From: Tannerella serpentiformis
GTDB lineage: Bacteria; Bacteroidota; Bacteroidia; Bacteroidales; Tannerellaceae
Assembly: GCF_003033925.1 (NCBI RefSeq)
Contig: NZ_CP028365.1
Location: 2,356,001 to 2,420,000 of the forward strand
DNA: 64,000 nucleotides
Reading direction: 5' to 3'
Shown here: positions 18,282 to 56,546 of the stretch, piece by piece
How the letters are laid out: the number at the start of each line of letters is the position of its first letter
Position numbering within the stretch: position 1 is the stretch's first letter
Made by a program: the position numbers and the translations under genes
Notes under the pieces: model-generated
What the model was told of the DNA's origin: nothing
Seen by the model: the letters and a program-made list of their open reading frames with translations, nothing else
The model's database searches: none

Positions 18282-19508
18282 TTATTTCAGCCGCTTTCCG
18301 TCCTTCATGCGGATAATGAAAGCGTTGGGGAAATCCTTCTGGAGTTCCCGATGGAGCCGCTGTATGTCTTTGAACTCCGTCGTCTCGCCACACGTGTATT
18401 TATACTTGCCTCCCTCGCGGTAATAGCTCGTGCGACGGCCTTTGAAGGCTCGGGCATTGTCCGGTAGTGGTTTGTCAGAAGTCAAGATCTGCACCTTGTA
18501 AACGACCCCGCTGCTGCTTGTTGACGAATGGCGGCTCTCGCCCACCACGCTACGTGCCGGACCATCAAACTGCACCGACACACTCGACCGTGATGACGAC
18601 GAGCTACGACTTGTGGGCGAGCTTTTCGGCTCCTCTTTCTTCTTTTCCGGAGCCTCTTTACGGCTTACGCCCTGGCCCTGCTTGCGTTCATAGTCGCGTT
18701 TGTAGCGTCCGAACGCGTTATAAATAGCCCGCGCCAACTCTGTGCGCCCCTTGTCGGAGGCCATGTAACTCTCCTCGTCAGGGTTTGAAATGTAGCCTAC
18801 CTCAACGAGCACACTAGGCATGCTGGTCGCCTTCAGTACCAAGAATCCAGCCTGCCGCACACCACGATTTCTCCGCCCCGCTTGCTCGAATCCACGCTGA
18901 ATTTCAGTGGCCAGTGCGATGCTTTGCGCCATGTTTTTATTCTGAATCAGGTCGAACATGATGTACGACTCTGAGGAATTGGGGTTGAAGTTTTCGTAGC
19001 GCTTCTTGTAATTGTCCTCCAGTAGGATGGCGGAATTTTCCAGCATCGCCACGTCCAGATTCTCCTTCGTTTGCGCCAATCCCAGGGTATACGTTTCCGT
19101 GCCCCGGACAGAACTGCCGTGCTTCAGCGAATTGGTATGGATGGAAATAAAGAGGTTGGCGTTGTTGTGGTTGGCTATGTTGGCACGCGTCTCCAAGCCC
19201 ACAAATTTGTCGCCTGTCCGCGTGTAGATCACCTTGACGTCCTTGTGCCCCTCGGCGATCATCTCGCCCAGCCTTTTGGCGATAGCCAAATTGATGTTCT
19301 TCTCGTTCGTTTTGCGCCCCCTGGCGCCGGGATCGCGTCCGCCATGTCCAGCGTCGATCACCACAGTGAATGTTTTCTTACTCGCCTGCAGCTGTGGAGC
19401 ACACCACAACGTGCAGAGGATGGAGACGATAAGCACGCTCCACAGCTTGTTTCTAATCGTTCCGTTTACCACCACTTTGTTTTTTGCGCAGATTGTTTGA
19501 ATGTGCAT
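18282..19508 (-). CDS. N-acetylmuramoyl-L-alanine amidase with SPOR-like C-terminus
   Basis: 408 residues. A hydrophobic N-terminal signal (SVLIVSILCTLWCA) is followed by an Amidase_3 domain (about residues 46-265) with zinc ligands in IDAGHGGRDPGARG, ISIHTNS and the catalytic Glu in VLVEVGYISN. A Lys/Glu and Ser-rich linker leads to a C-terminal domain (VYKVQILTSDKPLPDN to the end) like a SPOR peptidoglycan-binding domain. It cuts stem peptides from glycan strands, probably during daughter cell separation. It probably forms an operon with the MlaD gene. Confidence 0.93.
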   Translation of the reverse strand: MHIQTICAKNKVVVNGTIRNKLWSVLIVSILCTLWCAPQLQASKKTFTVVIDAGHGGRDPGARGRKTNEKNINLAIAKRLGEMIAEGHKDVKVIYTRTGDKFVGLETRANIANHNNANLFISIHTNSLKHGSSVRGTETYTLGLAQTKENLDVAMLENSAILLEDNYKKRYENFNPNSSESYIMFDLIQNKNMAQSIALATEIQRGFEQAGRRNRGVRQAGFLVLKATSMPSVLVEVGYISNPDEESYMASDKGRTELARAIYNAFGRYKRDYERKQGQGVSRKEAPEKKKEEPKSSPTSRSSSSSRSSVSVQFDGPARSVVGESRHSSTSSSGVVYKVQILTSDKPLPDNARAFKGRRTSYYREGGKYKYTCGETTEFKDIQRLHRELQKDFPNAFIIRMKDGKRLK

Positions 19509-19598: not shown

Positions 19599-19606
19599 CA
19601 AAAGTA
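19599..19606 (-). promoter_or_regulatory. -7 box of the amidase operon
   Basis: TACTTTTG on the minus strand, about 90 bp before the amidase ATG. No good -33 box is seen. Confidence 0.45.
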
Positions 19607-19639: not shown

Positions 19640-19915
19640 GCTTCCACGGCCGATCCTGCGGCTCTGTCGTGCCCCCGCGAAGCCTCCGCCGAAACCTCCG
19701 CGAAGCCATTTTGAACATGCGAACCTCTCGTCCGAACCTCCGTGGCCTCATTTCCAATCCGTGAAGGCATCAACCAAACCGCTGTACCCCCATTTCCTAT
19801 CCGTGAAGGCATCTACCGAACCACGGTGTCCCCATTTCCTATCCGTGAAGCCTTCAACCAAACCTCCGCGAAGCCATTTTCAATCAATGAAGACATCAAC
19901 CAGATTTTACCCATG
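19640..19915. repeat. array C-left, 42-bp period
   Basis: Units such as CGTGAAGGCATCAACCAAAC followed by a CCCATTTCCTATC-type tail start at 19760, 19802, 19844 and 19886 (exactly 42 bp), with more diverged units upstream from about 19640. The right-hand array at 20468 is the same family in reverse orientation. Confidence 0.85.
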
Positions 19916-19919
19916 TTTT

Positions 19920-20440
19920 TGTGATGTCACGAAGGTCTGGATGATATACTCATAATATACGAATGCGCGCATGAATTAAAGATAAGTGTTATATTCATAA
20001 TAGCACGCGTGGATAAAATATAGTACAATGAGTGAAATAGATTCATGTGTAATCACGAATGATTATATATAATACGATTTATAATCTTGTGAACACAACA
20101 ATCTGTGTAAATTGTATTCTCATATATAGATGTATACAGGATAAATCGCATGAGATATGATTATTCTTTATGTGATATCATGATTGCATGTATGATATAC
20201 TTATAATATACACATGTGCGCATGGGTTATAGAAGAATGCTATATTTATAAGAGTATGTGTGGATGAGGAATAGTATAACAAGTTGAATAGATCTATATG
20301 TGATCATGGTGAGTCGTTTACAATGTGATTTATGTTCTTGTGAGCGCATGTAATCGTATATATTATATCCTCAGATGTATGTGCGTGCAGAATAAGTTAT
20401 AGGAGATGCTATTATTCTTCATGTGATATCACGAATTAGT
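19920..20440. repeat. AT-rich 251-bp tandem duplication
   Basis: Two diverged copies, 19920-20170 and 20171-20421, plus the start of a third. Matching landmarks keep a constant 251-bp offset: TGTGATGTCA/TGTGATATCA at 19920, 20171 and 20422; ATGATATAC at 19941 and 20192; GCGCATG at 19967 and 20218. Each unit starts with a near-palindromic GTGATRTCAC. The segment is far more A+T-rich than anything else in the window and contains no credible gene. Confidence 0.9.
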
Positions 20441-20467
20441 GATTCCTTTGACAGTGGACACTTCACA

Positions 20468-20640
20468 GATTGAAAATGGCTTCGCGGCGTTTGGTTTGGA
20501 GGCTTTGCGGATTGAAAATGACGTTGTGGAAAAGGCGATGAAGGCTTCGCGGGTTGAATCTGGAGCCACCAGATTTGGTTTGGGGGCTTCGTAAAGTGGA
20601 AATGGCCTTGCGGGATTCGTGGTGATAGCGTTGCGTCAGG
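20468..20640. repeat. array C-right, 42-bp period, inverted relative to C-left
   Basis: Units beginning GATTGAAAATGGCTTCGCGG start at 20468, 20510, 20552 and 20594, exactly 42 bp apart. The sequence matches the reverse complement of array C-left (for example GATTGAAAATGGCTTCGCGG against the end of the left array). Together the two arrays bracket the 251-bp duplication as long inverted repeats. Confidence 0.85.
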
Positions 20641-20726
20641 AGGGGAGGGTGGAGGCGTTGTCGGTGGGTGTCATGCGCCGGCGGGAGGGTGCGGATCGGA
20701 TTCAGGAGGCGAAGGGGTGAAAACAA

Positions 20727-20759
20727 AAAGGCTGCACTGGATGAACCAGCGCAGCCTTT
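20727..20759 (-). terminator. terminator after tRNA-Lys
   Basis: AAAGGCTGC and GCAGCCTTT pair, extended by CTGG/CCAG, around an ATGAA loop. T-rich sequence follows on the minus strand. It lies 38 bp downstream of the tRNA. Confidence 0.8.
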
Positions 20760-20796
20760 GCTTTTATCTATTCAATCGGAAGAAATTGTTTCGGTG

Positions 20797-20869
20797 TGAC
20801 CCCGGAGAGGCTCGAACTCTCGACCCAATGATTAAGAGTCATTTGCTCTACCAACTGAGCTACGGAGTC
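20797..20869 (-). tRNA. tRNA-Lys (CTT anticodon)
   Basis: The minus strand folds into a full cloverleaf: acceptor GACTCCG/CGGGGTC, D-arm with GCTCAGTTGGTAGAGC, anticodon loop CTCTTAA, and T-arm with GTTCGAGCC. The anticodon CTT reads the lysine codon AAG. The discriminator is A and the CCA end is not encoded. A TACTTTTG box lies about 34 bp upstream and a strong terminator downstream, so it appears to be a single-tRNA transcript. Confidence 0.97.
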
Positions 20870-28682: not shown

Positions 28683-28825
28683 CGGCAATTCCACCGACCG
28701 CTCGGAGCCGGAGGCCTGTCCACGCCCCCGTGCCGACCCGTTGCAGAACGCCGTAGCACTGTCATTATGGCACGAATCGTGGGCGTGACGCTCTACATCT
28801 TCTGCCTTTCATACGTCGCCAAGCC

Positions 28826-29353
28826 GCTTGACGGCTCCGCTGGCACGCAGGCTCTCCAAAAAGTCGCTTGACGGGGCCGCTGGGTCGTAAGTGGCGCTAA
28901 AAAGTCGCTTGACAGCTCCGCTGGCACGCAGCGGCGCTAAAAAGTCGCTTGACGGGGCCGCTGGGTCGTAAGTGGCGCGAAAAAGTCGCTTGACGGCTCC
29001 GCTGGCACGCAGCGACGCGAAAAAGTCGCTTGACAGCTCCGCTGGCACGCAGGCTCCTCAAAAAGTCGCTTGACGAGGCCGCTGGCACGCAGGCTCTCCA
29101 AAAAGTCGCTTGACGGCTCCGCTGGTACGCAGGCTCCTCAAAATGTCGCATGACGAGGCCGCTGGCACGCAGGCTCTCCAAAATGCGGCATGACGGCTCC
29201 GCTGGCACGCAGGCTCTCCAAAATGTCGCATGACGAGGCCGCTGGCACGCAGGCTCTCCAAAATGCGGCATGACGGCTCCGCTGGCACGCAGGCTCTCCA
29301 AAATGTCGCATGACGGGCCCGCTGGCACGCAGCGACGTGAAAATGTCGCATGA
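28826..29353. repeat. tandem array B, 40-41-bp period
   Basis: About thirteen units of the type GCTTGACGGCTCCGCTGGCA plus CGCAGGCTCTCCAAAAAGTC. Measured starts include 28826, 28866, 28907 and 28947. Two subtypes alternate (AAAAAGTCGCTTGAC and AAAATGTCGCATGAC). The array fills the space between the divergent ATPase operon and the NagB-like gene. Confidence 0.9.
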
Positions 29354-36839: not shown

Positions 36840-38070
36840 TATCCATTGGCCCCCGAAATGGTTTCCGATGTGTGCGCCCGACGCCCATCCGCCGGTAGGG
36901 TAGGGGCGTATTGCATACGCCCCTTCAGATATCCCCGCAGGGGACAAATCCGACGGCGGCGGTCGACACCCATCCGCCTATAAAATGGAATCCGATTGCG
37001 GCGGATACCTGTCGGGCGCTATTGTTCTCGGCCATGAACATGGGAGGCGTATGCAATACGCCCCTACACGGACGTTCGACAATGGCCGCTGTCGTCCATT
37101 CGCCTCTGTCGGAAACCATTTCACGGGCCACCGCGTCCCATCCGCCGGTAGGGTAGGGGCGTATTGCATACGCCCCTTCAAATGGCCCCGCAGGGGACAA
37201 ATCCGACGGCGGCGGGTCCCTGTTGGGCGCTATTGTTCCCTGCCGGGAACATCGGGGGCGTATGCAATACGCCCCTACACGGACGTTCGACAATGGCCGC
37301 TATCGTTCATCCGCCCCCGTCGGAAACCATTTTATAGGCCATCGCGTCCCATCCGCCGGTAGGGTAGGGGCGTATTGCATACGCCCCTTCAAATGGCCCC
37401 GCAGGGGACAAATCCGACGGCGGCGCCTGACGTTCATTCGCCCCCAAAATGTTTTTCGATTGCGGCGGATCTCTGTCGGGCGCTATTGTTCTCGGCCATG
37501 AACATGGGGGCGTATGCAATACGCCCCTACACGGACGTCCGACAATGGCCGCTGACGTTTGTTCGCCCCCGAAATGTTTCCCGATTGCGGCGGATACCTG
37601 TCGGGCGCTATTGTTCCCTACCGGGAACATGAGGGGGCGTATGCTTTTGCGCCCCTACACGGACGTCCGACAATGGCCGCTGTCGTTCATTCGCCCCCGT
37701 CGGAATCCATTTTATAGGCCATCGCGTCCCATCCGCCGGTAGGGTAGGGGCGTATTGCATACGCCCCTTCAAATGGCCCCGTAGGGGACAAATCCGACGG
37801 CGGCGCCCGACGCCCATTCGCCTCCGAAATGGTTTCCGACGGCGGCGGATACCCGATAGGCGCTATTGTTTCCTACCGGGAACATGGGGGGCGTATGCAA
37901 TACGCCCCTACACGGATGTCCGACAATGGCCGCTGTCGTTCGTTCGCCCCCAGTCGGAATCTATTTTATAGGTCATCGCGTCCCATCCGCCGGTAGGGTA
38001 GGGGCGTATTGCATACGCCCCTTCAAATGACCCCGTAGGGGACAAATCCGACGGCGGCGGTCGACGCCCA
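36840..38070. repeat. higher-order repeat field H
   Basis: The near-palindrome GGGGCGTATTGCATACGCCC recurs in one orientation at 36903, 37156, 37367, 37747 and 38001, each preceded by CATCCGCCGGTAGGGTA and followed by CTTCAAATGGCCCCGCAGGG. The opposite orientation alternates with it near 37045, 37257, 37505, 37890 and 38143, followed by CTACACGGACGTYCGACAAT. Spacing between like copies is about 211, 253 and 380 bp, near multiples of 42. Long open frames in all frames here are products of the repeats. Confidence 0.85.
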
Positions 38071-38229
38071 TCCGCCTATAAAATGGAATCCAATTGCGGC
38101 GGATGCCTGTTGGGCGCTATTGTTTCCTACCGGAAATATGGGGGGCGTATGCTTTTGCGCCCCTACACGGACGTCCGACAATGGCCGCCGACGTTCATTC
38201 GCCCCCGGAATGTTTTCCGATACGTGCGC

Positions 38230-38757
38230 CCGACGCCCATTCGCCCCCGTCGGAAACCATTTTATGGGCCGATGACACCCATTCGCCTCTAAAATGTTTT
38301 CCAATGGGAGCGGCTGACGCTTGGGCGCCCTTGTCGGAAACCATTTTATGGGCCGATGACACCCATTCGCCCCTAAAATGTTTTCCAATGGGAGCGGCTG
38401 ACGCTTGGGTGCCCTTGTCGGAATGTCCAACGGGAGCGGCTGGCGGTCAGACACCCTCAAAATGGTTTCCAATGGGGCGTCTTTTTGCTCGGACGCCCCC
38501 GTTGGACACTCCGACGGGGCGTCTTTTTGCTCAGACACCCTCAAAATGGTTTCCAACGGGGCGTCTTTTTGCTCAGACACCCTCAAAATGGTTTCCAACG
38601 GGGCGTCTTTTTGCTCAGACACCCTCAAAATGGTTTCCAACGGGGCGTCTTTTTGCTCAGACACCCTCAAAATGGTTTCCAACGGGGCGTCTTTTTGCTC
38701 AGACACCCTCAAAATGGTTTCCAACGAGGCGTCTTTTTGCTCAGACGCCCCATCTGT
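38230..38757. repeat. tandem array I, 42-bp period
   Basis: The 42-bp unit (AAAATGGTTTCCAACGGGGC then GTCTTTTTGCTCAGACACCCTC) starts at 38459, 38543, 38585, 38627, 38669 and 38711, all multiples of 42 apart, with a variant unit at 38501. Before it, an 84-bp double unit (CCCATTCGCC at 38278 and 38362) links the array to field H. Confidence 0.92.
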
Positions 38758-42014: not shown

Positions 42015-42320
42015 GCGCAACCTGCGCCGATGTCGCGGCAAATGCTTTGGGAGTTGCGCAACCTGCGCAGACGTCGCGGTAAATGCTTTGGGAGTTGCGC
42101 AACCTGCGCAGACGTCGCGGCAAATGCTTTGGGAGTTGCGCAACCTGCGCCGCTGTCTCGGCAAATGCTTTGGGATCGGCGCAACCTGCGCAGACGTCGC
42201 GGCAAATGCTTTGGGAGTTGCGCAACCTGCGCAGACGTCGCGGCAAATGCTTTGGGAGTTGCGCAACCTGCGCCGCCGTCTCGGTAAAAGCTTTGGGATT
42301 GGCGCAACCTGCGCAATGCC
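42015..42320. repeat. tandem array D, exact 41-bp period
   Basis: GCGCAACCTGCGC starts at 42015, 42056, 42097, 42138, 42179, 42220, 42261 and 42302, each 41 bp apart. TGCGCAACCTGCGCA is an inverted repeat with a 3-bp centre. The rest of the unit (GACGTCGCGGCAAATGCTTT GGGAG) varies slightly. It lies between convergent genes; 42321-42423 holds one further hairpin (GCCGGTTCACCGGC at 42398-42411). Confidence 0.95.
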
Positions 42321-46262: not shown

Positions 46263-46297
46263 CTCTTATGCGTTTTGTTCTAATCATTCATGAAAGC

Positions 46298-46860
46298 GTT
46301 TGCGGGAACTCCGCAAGTGCCTCCGAAAAACTTTTTGGAGTTTGCAGGAACCCCGCAAGTGCCTCGAAAAACTTTTTGGCGTTTGCGGGAACTCCGCAAG
46401 TGCCTCGAAAAACTTTTTGGCGTTTGCGGGAACTCCGCAAGTGCCTTGAAAAACTTTTTGGTGTTTGCGGGAACCCCGCAAGTGCCTCGAAAAACTTTTT
46501 GGCGTTTGCAGAAGTTCTGCAAGCTCCGATTTCTCCTTTTTGGCGTTTGCAGAAGTTCTGCAAGCTCCATTTTTCTCTTTTGGGCATTTGCAGAAGTCCT
46601 GCAAGCTCCATTTTTCTCTTTTGAGCATTTGCAGAAGTTCTGCAAGCTCCGATTTCTCCTTTTTGGCGTTTGCAGAAGTTCTGCAAACTCCATTTTCTTC
46701 TTTTGGGCATTTGCAGAAGTTCTGCAAGCTCCATTTTTCTCTTTTGGGCATTTGCAGGAGTTCTGCAAGCTCCATTTTTCCCTTTTGGGCGTTTGCAGAA
46801 GTTCTGCAAGCTCCATTTTTCCCTTTGGGGTCTTTGCAGGAACGCTGCAAACGTTTTCGG
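46298..46860. repeat. tandem array E, 41-bp period, stem-loop units
   Basis: About fourteen units. Starts measured at 46298, 46340, 46381, 46422, 46463, 46504, 46545 and 46586: one 42-bp step, then 41 throughout. Two subtypes: GTTTGCGGGAACTCCGCAAG and GTTTGCAGAAGTTCTGCAAG, each followed by a different 21-bp tail. The inverted repeat TTGCGG/CCGCAA in one is TTGCAG/CTGCAA in the other, so both arms changed together. Confidence 0.93.
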
Positions 46861-50459: not shown

Positions 50460-50545
50460 GAATTTGGCCGGGTACATATAGGGGCGCAAAAGCATACGCC
50501 CTACGTGTACCCGGGTAGGGGCGTATTGCATACGCCCCATTGCAC
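50460..50545. repeat. dispersed GGGGCG palindromes next to array F
   Basis: AATTTGGCCGGGTACATATA, then GGGGCGCAAAAGCATACGCC, then GGGGCGTATTGCATACGCCC. The last is identical to the palindrome of field H. Confidence 0.75.
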
Positions 50546-50554
50546 AGCCTCGTC

Positions 50555-50985
50555 GCAGTGTGTGAAATGACCACGCAACACCTGCGCAGCGTCGTCGCAG
50601 TGTGTGAAACGACTATGCAACACCTGCACAGCCCCGCTGCAGTGTGCGAAACGGCCACGCAACACCTGCGCAACCCCGCCGCAGTGTGTGAAACGATCAC
50701 GCAACACCTGCGCAGCCCCTTCGCAGTGTGCGAAACGACCATGCAACATCTGCACAGCCCTTTCGCAATGTGTGAAATGACTACGCAACACCTGCGCGGC
50801 GTCGTCGCAGTGTGTGAAACGACTACGCAACACCTGCACAGCGTCGTCGCAGTGTGTGAAATGACCATGCACCACCTGCATAGCCTCGTCGTAGTGTGTG
50901 AGACGACCATGCACCACCTGCACAGCCTCGTCGTAGTGTGTGAGACGACCACGCAACACCTGCGCAGCCCTTTCGTAATGTGCGC
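50555..50985. repeat. tandem array F, 42-bp period
   Basis: GCAGTGTG starts at 50555, 50597, 50639 and 50681 and continues to about 50985, eleven units. The unit also contains ACGCAACACCTGCGCAGC, and GTCGT/ACGAC arms flank the GCAGTGTGTGAA core. It lies between the divergent radical SAM and TonB-receptor genes. Confidence 0.92.
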
Positions 50986-56100: not shown

Positions 56101-56204
56101 ACTGATTCTGTAAGTGATTGGTTGATTGAAAAGTGAATTGGTTATATGTCGTTGCTGATCCATGACGGGCGCCTTTTAACTGTGTTTTACCCCTTGCACG
56201 GCGT

Positions 56205-56546
56205 GCGAGTACCAAAACTCACCGGGTTTTGCCCTTTGCACGGCATGCGAGTACCAAAACTCGCCGGGTTTTGCCCTTTGCACGGCATGCGAGTACCAAA
56301 ACTCGCCGGGTTTTGCCCTTTGCATGCCGTGCGAGTACCAAAACTCACCGGGTTTTGCCCTTTGCACGGCATGCGAGTACCAAAACTCACCGGGTTTTGC
56401 CCTTTGCACGGCATGCGAGTACCAAAACTCGCCGGGTTTTGCCCTTTGCACGGCGTGCGAGTACCGAAACTCACCGGGTTTTACCCCTTGCACGGCGTGC
56501 GAGTACCAAAACTCACCGGGTTTTGCCCTTTGCACGGCGTGCGAGC
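56205..56546. repeat. tandem array G, exact 42-bp period
   Basis: GCGAG starts at 56205, 56247 and so on to 56541, nine sites exactly 42 bp apart. Unit: GCGAGTACCAAAACTCGCCG then GGTTTTGCCCTTTGCACGGCAT. Each contains two hairpins: AAAACTC/GGGTTTT and GCACG/CGTGC (variants GCATG, CATGC). Confidence 0.95.

Follow-up and report, generated by a model that had tools for sequence, protein, structure and literature searches.

The chromosome of Tannerella serpentiformis is a single contig (C1) of 3,013,500 bp. The window, that is, the whole stretch of DNA analysed, spans 64,000 nucleotides at C1:2356001-2420000 and has a GC content of 59%; positions without the prefix C1 are counted within it. The block studied here (19675-20678) is about 1 kb long and lies between an amidase gene and a tRNA-Lys gene (Table 1). 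The probable amidase promoter is a TACTTTTG box, and the consensus of the Bacteroidota-type -7 box is TAnnTTTG. As read from the sequence, the block is located past the tRNA-Lys terminator at one end and behind the promoter of the amidase gene at the other, and is part of neither transcript. The V-type ATPase subunit encoded next door has its closest relatives in Tannerella, of which two oral groups have been described (PMC13298647), and the closest congener amidase is about 61% identical. At the amidase loci of 11 congeners, neither tRNA-Lys nor arrays were found nearby.

Table 1. Features of the block and its surroundings (positions within the window).
Feature	Position	Strand	Basis or remark
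Amidase gene, N-acetylmuramoyl-L-alanine amidase (Amidase_3)	18282..19508	-	PF01520, E 2.8e-52; left of element, pointing away
TACTTTTG box, probable amidase promoter	19599..19606	-	sequence; beyond lattice boundary
Left GC-rich 42-bp array	19675..19915	+	about 5-6 non-palindromic units; lag 42 identity 0.65-0.71
Left inverted arm, best-matching stretch	19833..19892	+	
AT-rich core	19916..20437	.	31% GC; 13 dyad positions, spacing 41.83 bp
251-bp copy 1, six 42-bp units	19920..20170	+	68.5% identity to copy 2
First anchor dyad GTGATGTCAC	19921..19930	.	sequence
251-bp copy 2, six 42-bp units	20171..20421	+	
Central dyad GTGATATCAT	20172..20181	.	centre 20176.5, the inversion axis of both arms
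Third anchor dyad GTGATATCAC	20423..20432	.	sequence
Right GC-rich 42-bp array	20438..20678	-	opposite orientation to left array
Right inverted arm, best-matching stretch	20461..20520	-	
Probable tRNA-Lys terminator, GC-rich hairpin then T run	20727..20759	-	inverted repeat and sequence
tRNA-Lys (CTT)	20796..20869	-	

An earlier note on this DNA had described two 42-bp arrays in opposite orientation, and both are present where it placed them, with 42-bp steps. TRF reports the left array at 19732-19902 with 4.0 copies, which makes the element a minisatellite by a definition of at least four tandem copies of a 10-200-bp unit, and extra copies reach 19675. Copies of the right array are at 20455, 20497, and 20581. 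The best-matching stretches of the two arms are 82% complementary across 60 nt (E = 2.9e-9 in a whole-genome search), and the ungapped comparison of the left array with the reverse complement of the right array gives a 53% match over 241 bp. The units of the arm arrays tested do not have significant hairpin dyads (p 0.4-0.93), but are inverted in pairs instead.

The core between the arms has a GC content of 0.31, compared with 0.59 for the window, and every other 500-bp stretch in the window is less AT-rich. At an offset of 251 bp the core is 68-69% identical to itself, while every other offset gives 40% or less, and blastn aligns the two copies with 71% identity over 270 bp (E = 7e-30). The tandem duplication of A+T-rich units in the earlier note is thus confirmed, as is its third partial start, which is the GTGATATCAC box. 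The same note had remarked that 251 is close to six times 42. In the two-copy profile, 42 is the top of 125 offsets after 251 (27.2, compared with a permutation mean of -0.5 and sd of 5.7), and an independent blind scan of lags from 20 to 79 chose lag 42 inside the core too (20120-20384). The core conceals the 42-bp period of the arrays (251 = 6 × 41.83); it is too diverged for TRF, and the 42-bp lag there is significant. The core has no long open frame (251 is indivisible by 3), and it has neither Rfam matches at E ≤ 1 nor DNA relatives. The earlier note had named a conserved gene or an IS remnant as evidence against it; the core has neither, as judged from open frames, Rfam, and the DNA search.

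When the core is stacked at 41.83 bp, a short dyad is seen at a fixed register in most of the units. The dyad centres are at about 19925.5, 19967.5, 20007.5, 20051.5, 20092.5, 20134.5, 20176.5, 20218.5, 20260.5, 20302.5, 20344.5, 20385.5, and 20427.5, and the stacked dyads are GTGATGTCAC, TGCGCGCA, CACGCGTG, TTGTGAACACAA, TGTATACA, GTGATATCAT, ATGTGCGCAT, TGATCA, and GTGATATCAC. The allowed jitter inflates covariation p-values, so the dyad pairing was judged against a phase-matched control: it is 0.593 at the register, while the other phases, with equal jitter, average 0.434 and reach at most 0.549. The register still beats all other phases without the three anchor boxes (h = 4, 5, and 6; rank 0). 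For this core, dyad strength does not reach significance in a Fourier test (half-width 7 bp), whereas the phase tests with shorter dyads were significant. The centres of the dyads vary, yet they are self-complementary (GATATC, CGCG, TATA, and GATC), with stems of 4-5 bp. The box is private to the locus, with four of the seven ATGTGATATCACGAA-like sites in the genome being in this core.

What is the relationship of the arms to the core? The inversion axis calculated from the arms alone is 20176.5, the exact centre of the middle GTGATATCAT box. Thus, the arms and the core form one mirror-symmetric lattice, although the core itself is not one big palindrome, as its global mirror score is 0.33 compared with a background of 0.28. 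The symmetrical structure with an AT-rich core in the earlier note is correct, and the position of the axis on the central dyad adds to it. The block is a single lattice, in which a unit of 41.8 bp occurs about 24 times, and not two arrays with an insert. The outer units have a high GC content, are not palindromic, and are inverted about the axis, while the inner units are AT-rich and diverged, with dyads in register. We hold these structural claims with high confidence.

A single strand of the block folds far beyond shuffled sequences (z = -6.3 with DNA parameters), via arm-arm pairing, as might be expected if the block were transcribed into an array of RNA hairpins or encoded a structured non-coding RNA. 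However, both strands show the symmetry equally, the block sits between a terminator and a promoter, the core stems are very short, and Rfam gives no match, so we consider an RNA function to be highly unlikely.

The AT-rich core with iterated boxes could also be taken for a centromere-like or replication site, both of which were suggested in the earlier note. Furthermore, dnaA is 42 kb from the element, and there are two 8/9 DnaA-box-like matches at 20008 and 20259, 251 bp apart. However, the window has 18 DnaA-like matches compared with 20.8 expected, which is not above chance. The only exact parS in the chromosome (TGTTTCACGTGAAACA, a 16-mer) is at C1:1418558-1418573, almost 1 Mb from the element. 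The rRNA operons at 1.175 Mb (-) and 2.306 Mb (+) point outward, and the GC skew, from the sampled stretches, changes near 1.4-1.5 Mb. By these three observations, the origin is close to 1.42 Mb. At 2.376 Mb, the element is about 64% along a replichore and is near neither the origin nor the terminus, and lattices of this class are dispersed across the chromosome. The oriC/parS reading was dropped on position and absent sites, and any role in replication or partition, be it as origin, parS-type centromere, or terminus, has a negligible probability in our estimation. The dnaA gene, at C1:2333207, is about 0.9 Mb from parS, so the origin region and dnaA are apparently far apart. A 42-bp array at C1:1416514-1416736 sits 2 kb from parS.

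The genome-wide figures are based on a 464-kb sample, made up of twenty 20-kb stretches across the chromosome (400 kb) and the window, together with pattern searches. The sample has 115 intergenic gaps of at least 200 bp; 55 of these show clear periodicity, with a period of 40-43 bp in 50. The TRF arrays number 6, 15, and 28 at 40, 41, and 42 bp (49 in total), and there is one at 43 bp. The density of periodic islands is 16.8 per 100 kb in this genome; it is 2.8-5.2 per 100 kb in other Tannerella and falls to 1.3 in the outgroup loci, including those of Porphyromonas. Divergent gaps have periodic DNA more often (58%) than tandem (40%) or convergent (39%) gaps, although these numbers are small. 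The units of simple arrays carry hairpin dyads (mean 6.8, compared with 4.8 for shuffles; p < 0.05 in 18 of 47). Both kinds of array are therefore mirror-symmetric, the simple ones through dyads within the units and the arms through inversion of the units in pairs.

The window contains seven other 40-42-bp tandem arrays, with unrelated unit sequences, at 560-742, 28821-29332, 38447-38750, 42015-42315, 46296-46839, 50541-50969, and 56184-56545. At 36989-38423 there are nested higher-order tandem repeats of 211, 380, 254, and 84 bp, near multiples of 42 bp.

The full architecture of GC-rich inverted 42-bp arms with an AT-rich dyad core is also found at C1:1201304-1202186, C1:1502184-1502914, and C1:2116983-2117599, and there is a weaker fourth further element at C1:465608-466223. 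In all four elements with outer arms (the present one and the first three), the axis of the arms and a symmetry point of the core lattice coincide (offset 0.0 bp), for which the chance is about 1/42 each. The element at C1:1201304-1202186 and C1:1502204-1502894, which is part of the second, align to their own reverse complements over 700-930 bp. Scaling from four in 464 kb suggests, by extrapolation, about 25 such elements per genome. The block is thus a member of a class of 40-42-bp intergenic arrays found throughout the Tannerella serpentiformis genome; the earlier description was right about the local structure and had not recognised that the architecture recurs elsewhere. The element at C1:1201304-1202186 has outer 34-nt inverted repeats and adjoins the start of an apparent ECF sigma-factor gene; all of its 900 bp is covered by the reverse-complement alignment.

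The palindromic boxes are clearly more conserved than the linkers in six sister AT-rich cores, with box and linker identities of 0.76 and 0.36, 0.74 and 0.37, 0.73 and 0.42, 0.63 and 0.39, 0.59 and 0.42, and 0.57 and 0.35. A seventh sister core gives 0.45 and 0.41, and the present core has the weakest box of all these (0.42, compared with 0.37 for the linker). The box sequences vary by locus: TCGG..CCGA at two loci, TCATAGNCTATGA, ATTACGNCGTAAT, and TATACGNCGTATA. In a chromosome search with two mismatches allowed, ATAGNCTAT at a 41-bp step gave 50 matches, compared with one for the reversed control. These matches, which also take in another, GAAATACACTATTTC-like family, are mostly at five loci near 0.60, 1.51, 2.30, 2.49, and 2.54 Mb, 0.05-0.9 Mb apart. 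The ATAGNCTAT box array was not found in 40 congeners with one mismatch allowed. AT-rich TTTCATAGNCTATGAAA arrays with an exact 41-bp step and without inverted arms occur at C1:2490200-2492400, C1:2536600-2538800, and C1:2303000-2305500; the first of these stretches takes in the CATAG-N-CTATG array at C1:2491064-2491400.

The DNA of the core and arms, for which the earlier note proposed a search of related genomes and a test of copy number, is single-copy in the genome and is unmatched in 40 relatives, phages, and plasmids; it is the architecture, and not the sequence, that recurs. The 464-kb sample also has no near-identical copies of AT-rich elements, while some loci have arm families in common, at 72-78% identity. 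The single copy and the lack of matches in phages and plasmids speak against the earlier suggestion of a mobile non-coding element; mobility of this copy is possible, but unsupported. At five loci of other Tannerellaceae, the intergenic arrays have units of 20-23 bp (two turns) and not 41-42 bp.

Eukaryotic foldback elements have long inverted termini of tandem subrepeats around a central loop. The block has the same plan of inverted subrepeat termini around a centre, and it may be an old foldback or MITE-like element, in which long terminal inverted repeats built from subrepeats surround a loop and the transposase acts in trans. The 34-nt inverted repeats that bound a sister element and the arm families common to some loci fit this origin. 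However, the element has no transposase inside and no copies, and the sole Y1 transposase gene is flanked by 29-bp GGGGTTTCGCCCC repeats and not by 42-bp units. We therefore regard such an origin as improbable, although less so than an RNA function.

No described family that explains the arrays was found in open-licence papers. The nearest published element found there is BrickBuilt of Porphyromonas gingivalis, a MITE that has IS-related TIRs and, inside them, a minisatellite of 23-nt repeats from a single family (PMC4596501), which is loosely similar in being intergenic, present at multiple loci in a related Bacteroidales family, and made of tandem repeats with inverted ends. The present element has terminal inverted repeats (the 60-nt arms, with 42-bp subrepeats), but it has neither sequence-similar genomic copies nor a 23-nt repeat, as its unit is 41.8 bp. 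Furthermore, in T. serpentiformis the 40-42-bp units have many unrelated sequences, the repeats themselves make the inverted arms, and there is an AT-rich dyad core with an exact coincidence of axes. The arrays resemble REP/BIME sequences as dispersed extragenic palindromes, at times clustered in alternating orientation. However, each RAYT has a single family of tagged hairpins as its REPs, while here the fixed lattice of 41-42 bp carries many families of boxes, and the element has no palindromes in common with the RAYT-gene flanks. Prokaryotic satellites and VNTR minisatellites are likewise non-coding tandem arrays of unrelated families scattered in genomes, in a survey whose main text does not mention Tannerella (PMC6749651), but they differ from the present arrays, which have a near-constant unit length across unrelated sequences, dyad units, and mirror-symmetric composites.

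The Y1-type transposase (RAYT-like, 152 aa) is the only one, at about C1:1380004-1380351, with the 29-bp GGGGTTTCGCCCC hairpin repeats on both sides; the repeat occurs three times in the 464-kb sample. The GGGGTTTCGCCCC repeats and the transposase are a candidate REP/RAYT system of Tannerella. RAYT was dropped as the driver of the arrays, since its flanking repeats differ from the 42-bp units.

A length of 41-42 bp corresponds to four turns of B-DNA, so every dyad would be on the same side of the helix. The best overall explanation, to which we give a probability of about 45%, is that the lattice is a helically phased array of protein-binding sites. Putative dimeric proteins of nucleoid type would bind to these sites cooperatively along one face, so that the stretch behind the amidase promoter, which neither transcript includes, would melt easily or be wrapped or bridged. 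The lattice may have grown as single units and larger blocks of them (42 to 251 bp) were duplicated, with dyad and phase retained while the linkers drifted. Among the suggestions of the earlier note, a silencing or nucleoid-protein site would be the closest to this proposal. The hidden 42-bp period of the core, the phased dyads, the coincidence of axes in all four elements with outer arms, the tight period of 40-43 bp across unrelated families, the five-locus ATAGNCTAT box at 41 bp, the mirror symmetry reached by both kinds of array, and the location of the block outside the two transcripts all favour a protein array, and the conservation of boxes above linkers in the sister cores is beyond what pure slippage gives. 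Constant pitch, conserved dyads, and mirror symmetry would together point to selection by a cooperative dimeric DNA-binding protein. On the other hand, the boxes of the present core are weaker than those of its sisters and private to the locus, its Fourier test is not significant, the variety of boxes exceeds the need of one DNA-binding protein, and the box family tested is absent from the congeners. The differences in boxes among loci suggest either several related proteins or one that reads shape and dyad over sequence. That the lattice actually functions as a protein array, with a putative protein, is a slightly more tentative claim than the overall explanation.

The main rival is the neutral growth of a functionless minisatellite by slippage and unequal recombination, aided by hairpins on the lagging strand. 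In this process, quasipalindrome correction, by template switching in hairpins, would preserve dyads without selection, and fold-back copying would give inverted arms. The higher-order periods of 84, 123, 211, 251, 254, and 380 are typical of duplication, the varying but self-complementary dyad centres fit template-switch repair, and the complete absence of the tested box family from the 40 congeners argues for fast turnover. However, neutral growth does not explain why unrelated sequences converge on 40-42 bp or why boxes outlast linkers in the sister cores. We consider it a substantial possibility, although a lesser one than a protein array.

Going further with the protein array, the mirror-symmetric four-turn dyad lattices with a pitch of 40-42 bp across the chromosome could be platforms for a putative nucleoid or insulator protein that recognises spacing and dyad symmetry. 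This broader proposal is speculative, and we think it less likely than neutral growth; if it is true, the system would be the counterpart in a bacterium of positioned-nucleosome or satellite chromatin. Close to half of the sampled larger intergenic spaces have one four-turn pitch in unrelated sequences. If this pitch is selected, it would represent an undescribed principle of chromosome organisation in a genus that includes bacteria of the human mouth, and if it is neutral, there would be a repeat-making process able to impose a helical pitch. One sampled stretch, C1:2500001-2520000, is a low-GC (45%) island with zero periodic islands of 40-43 bp, and is possibly recently acquired DNA that the arrays have yet to colonise.
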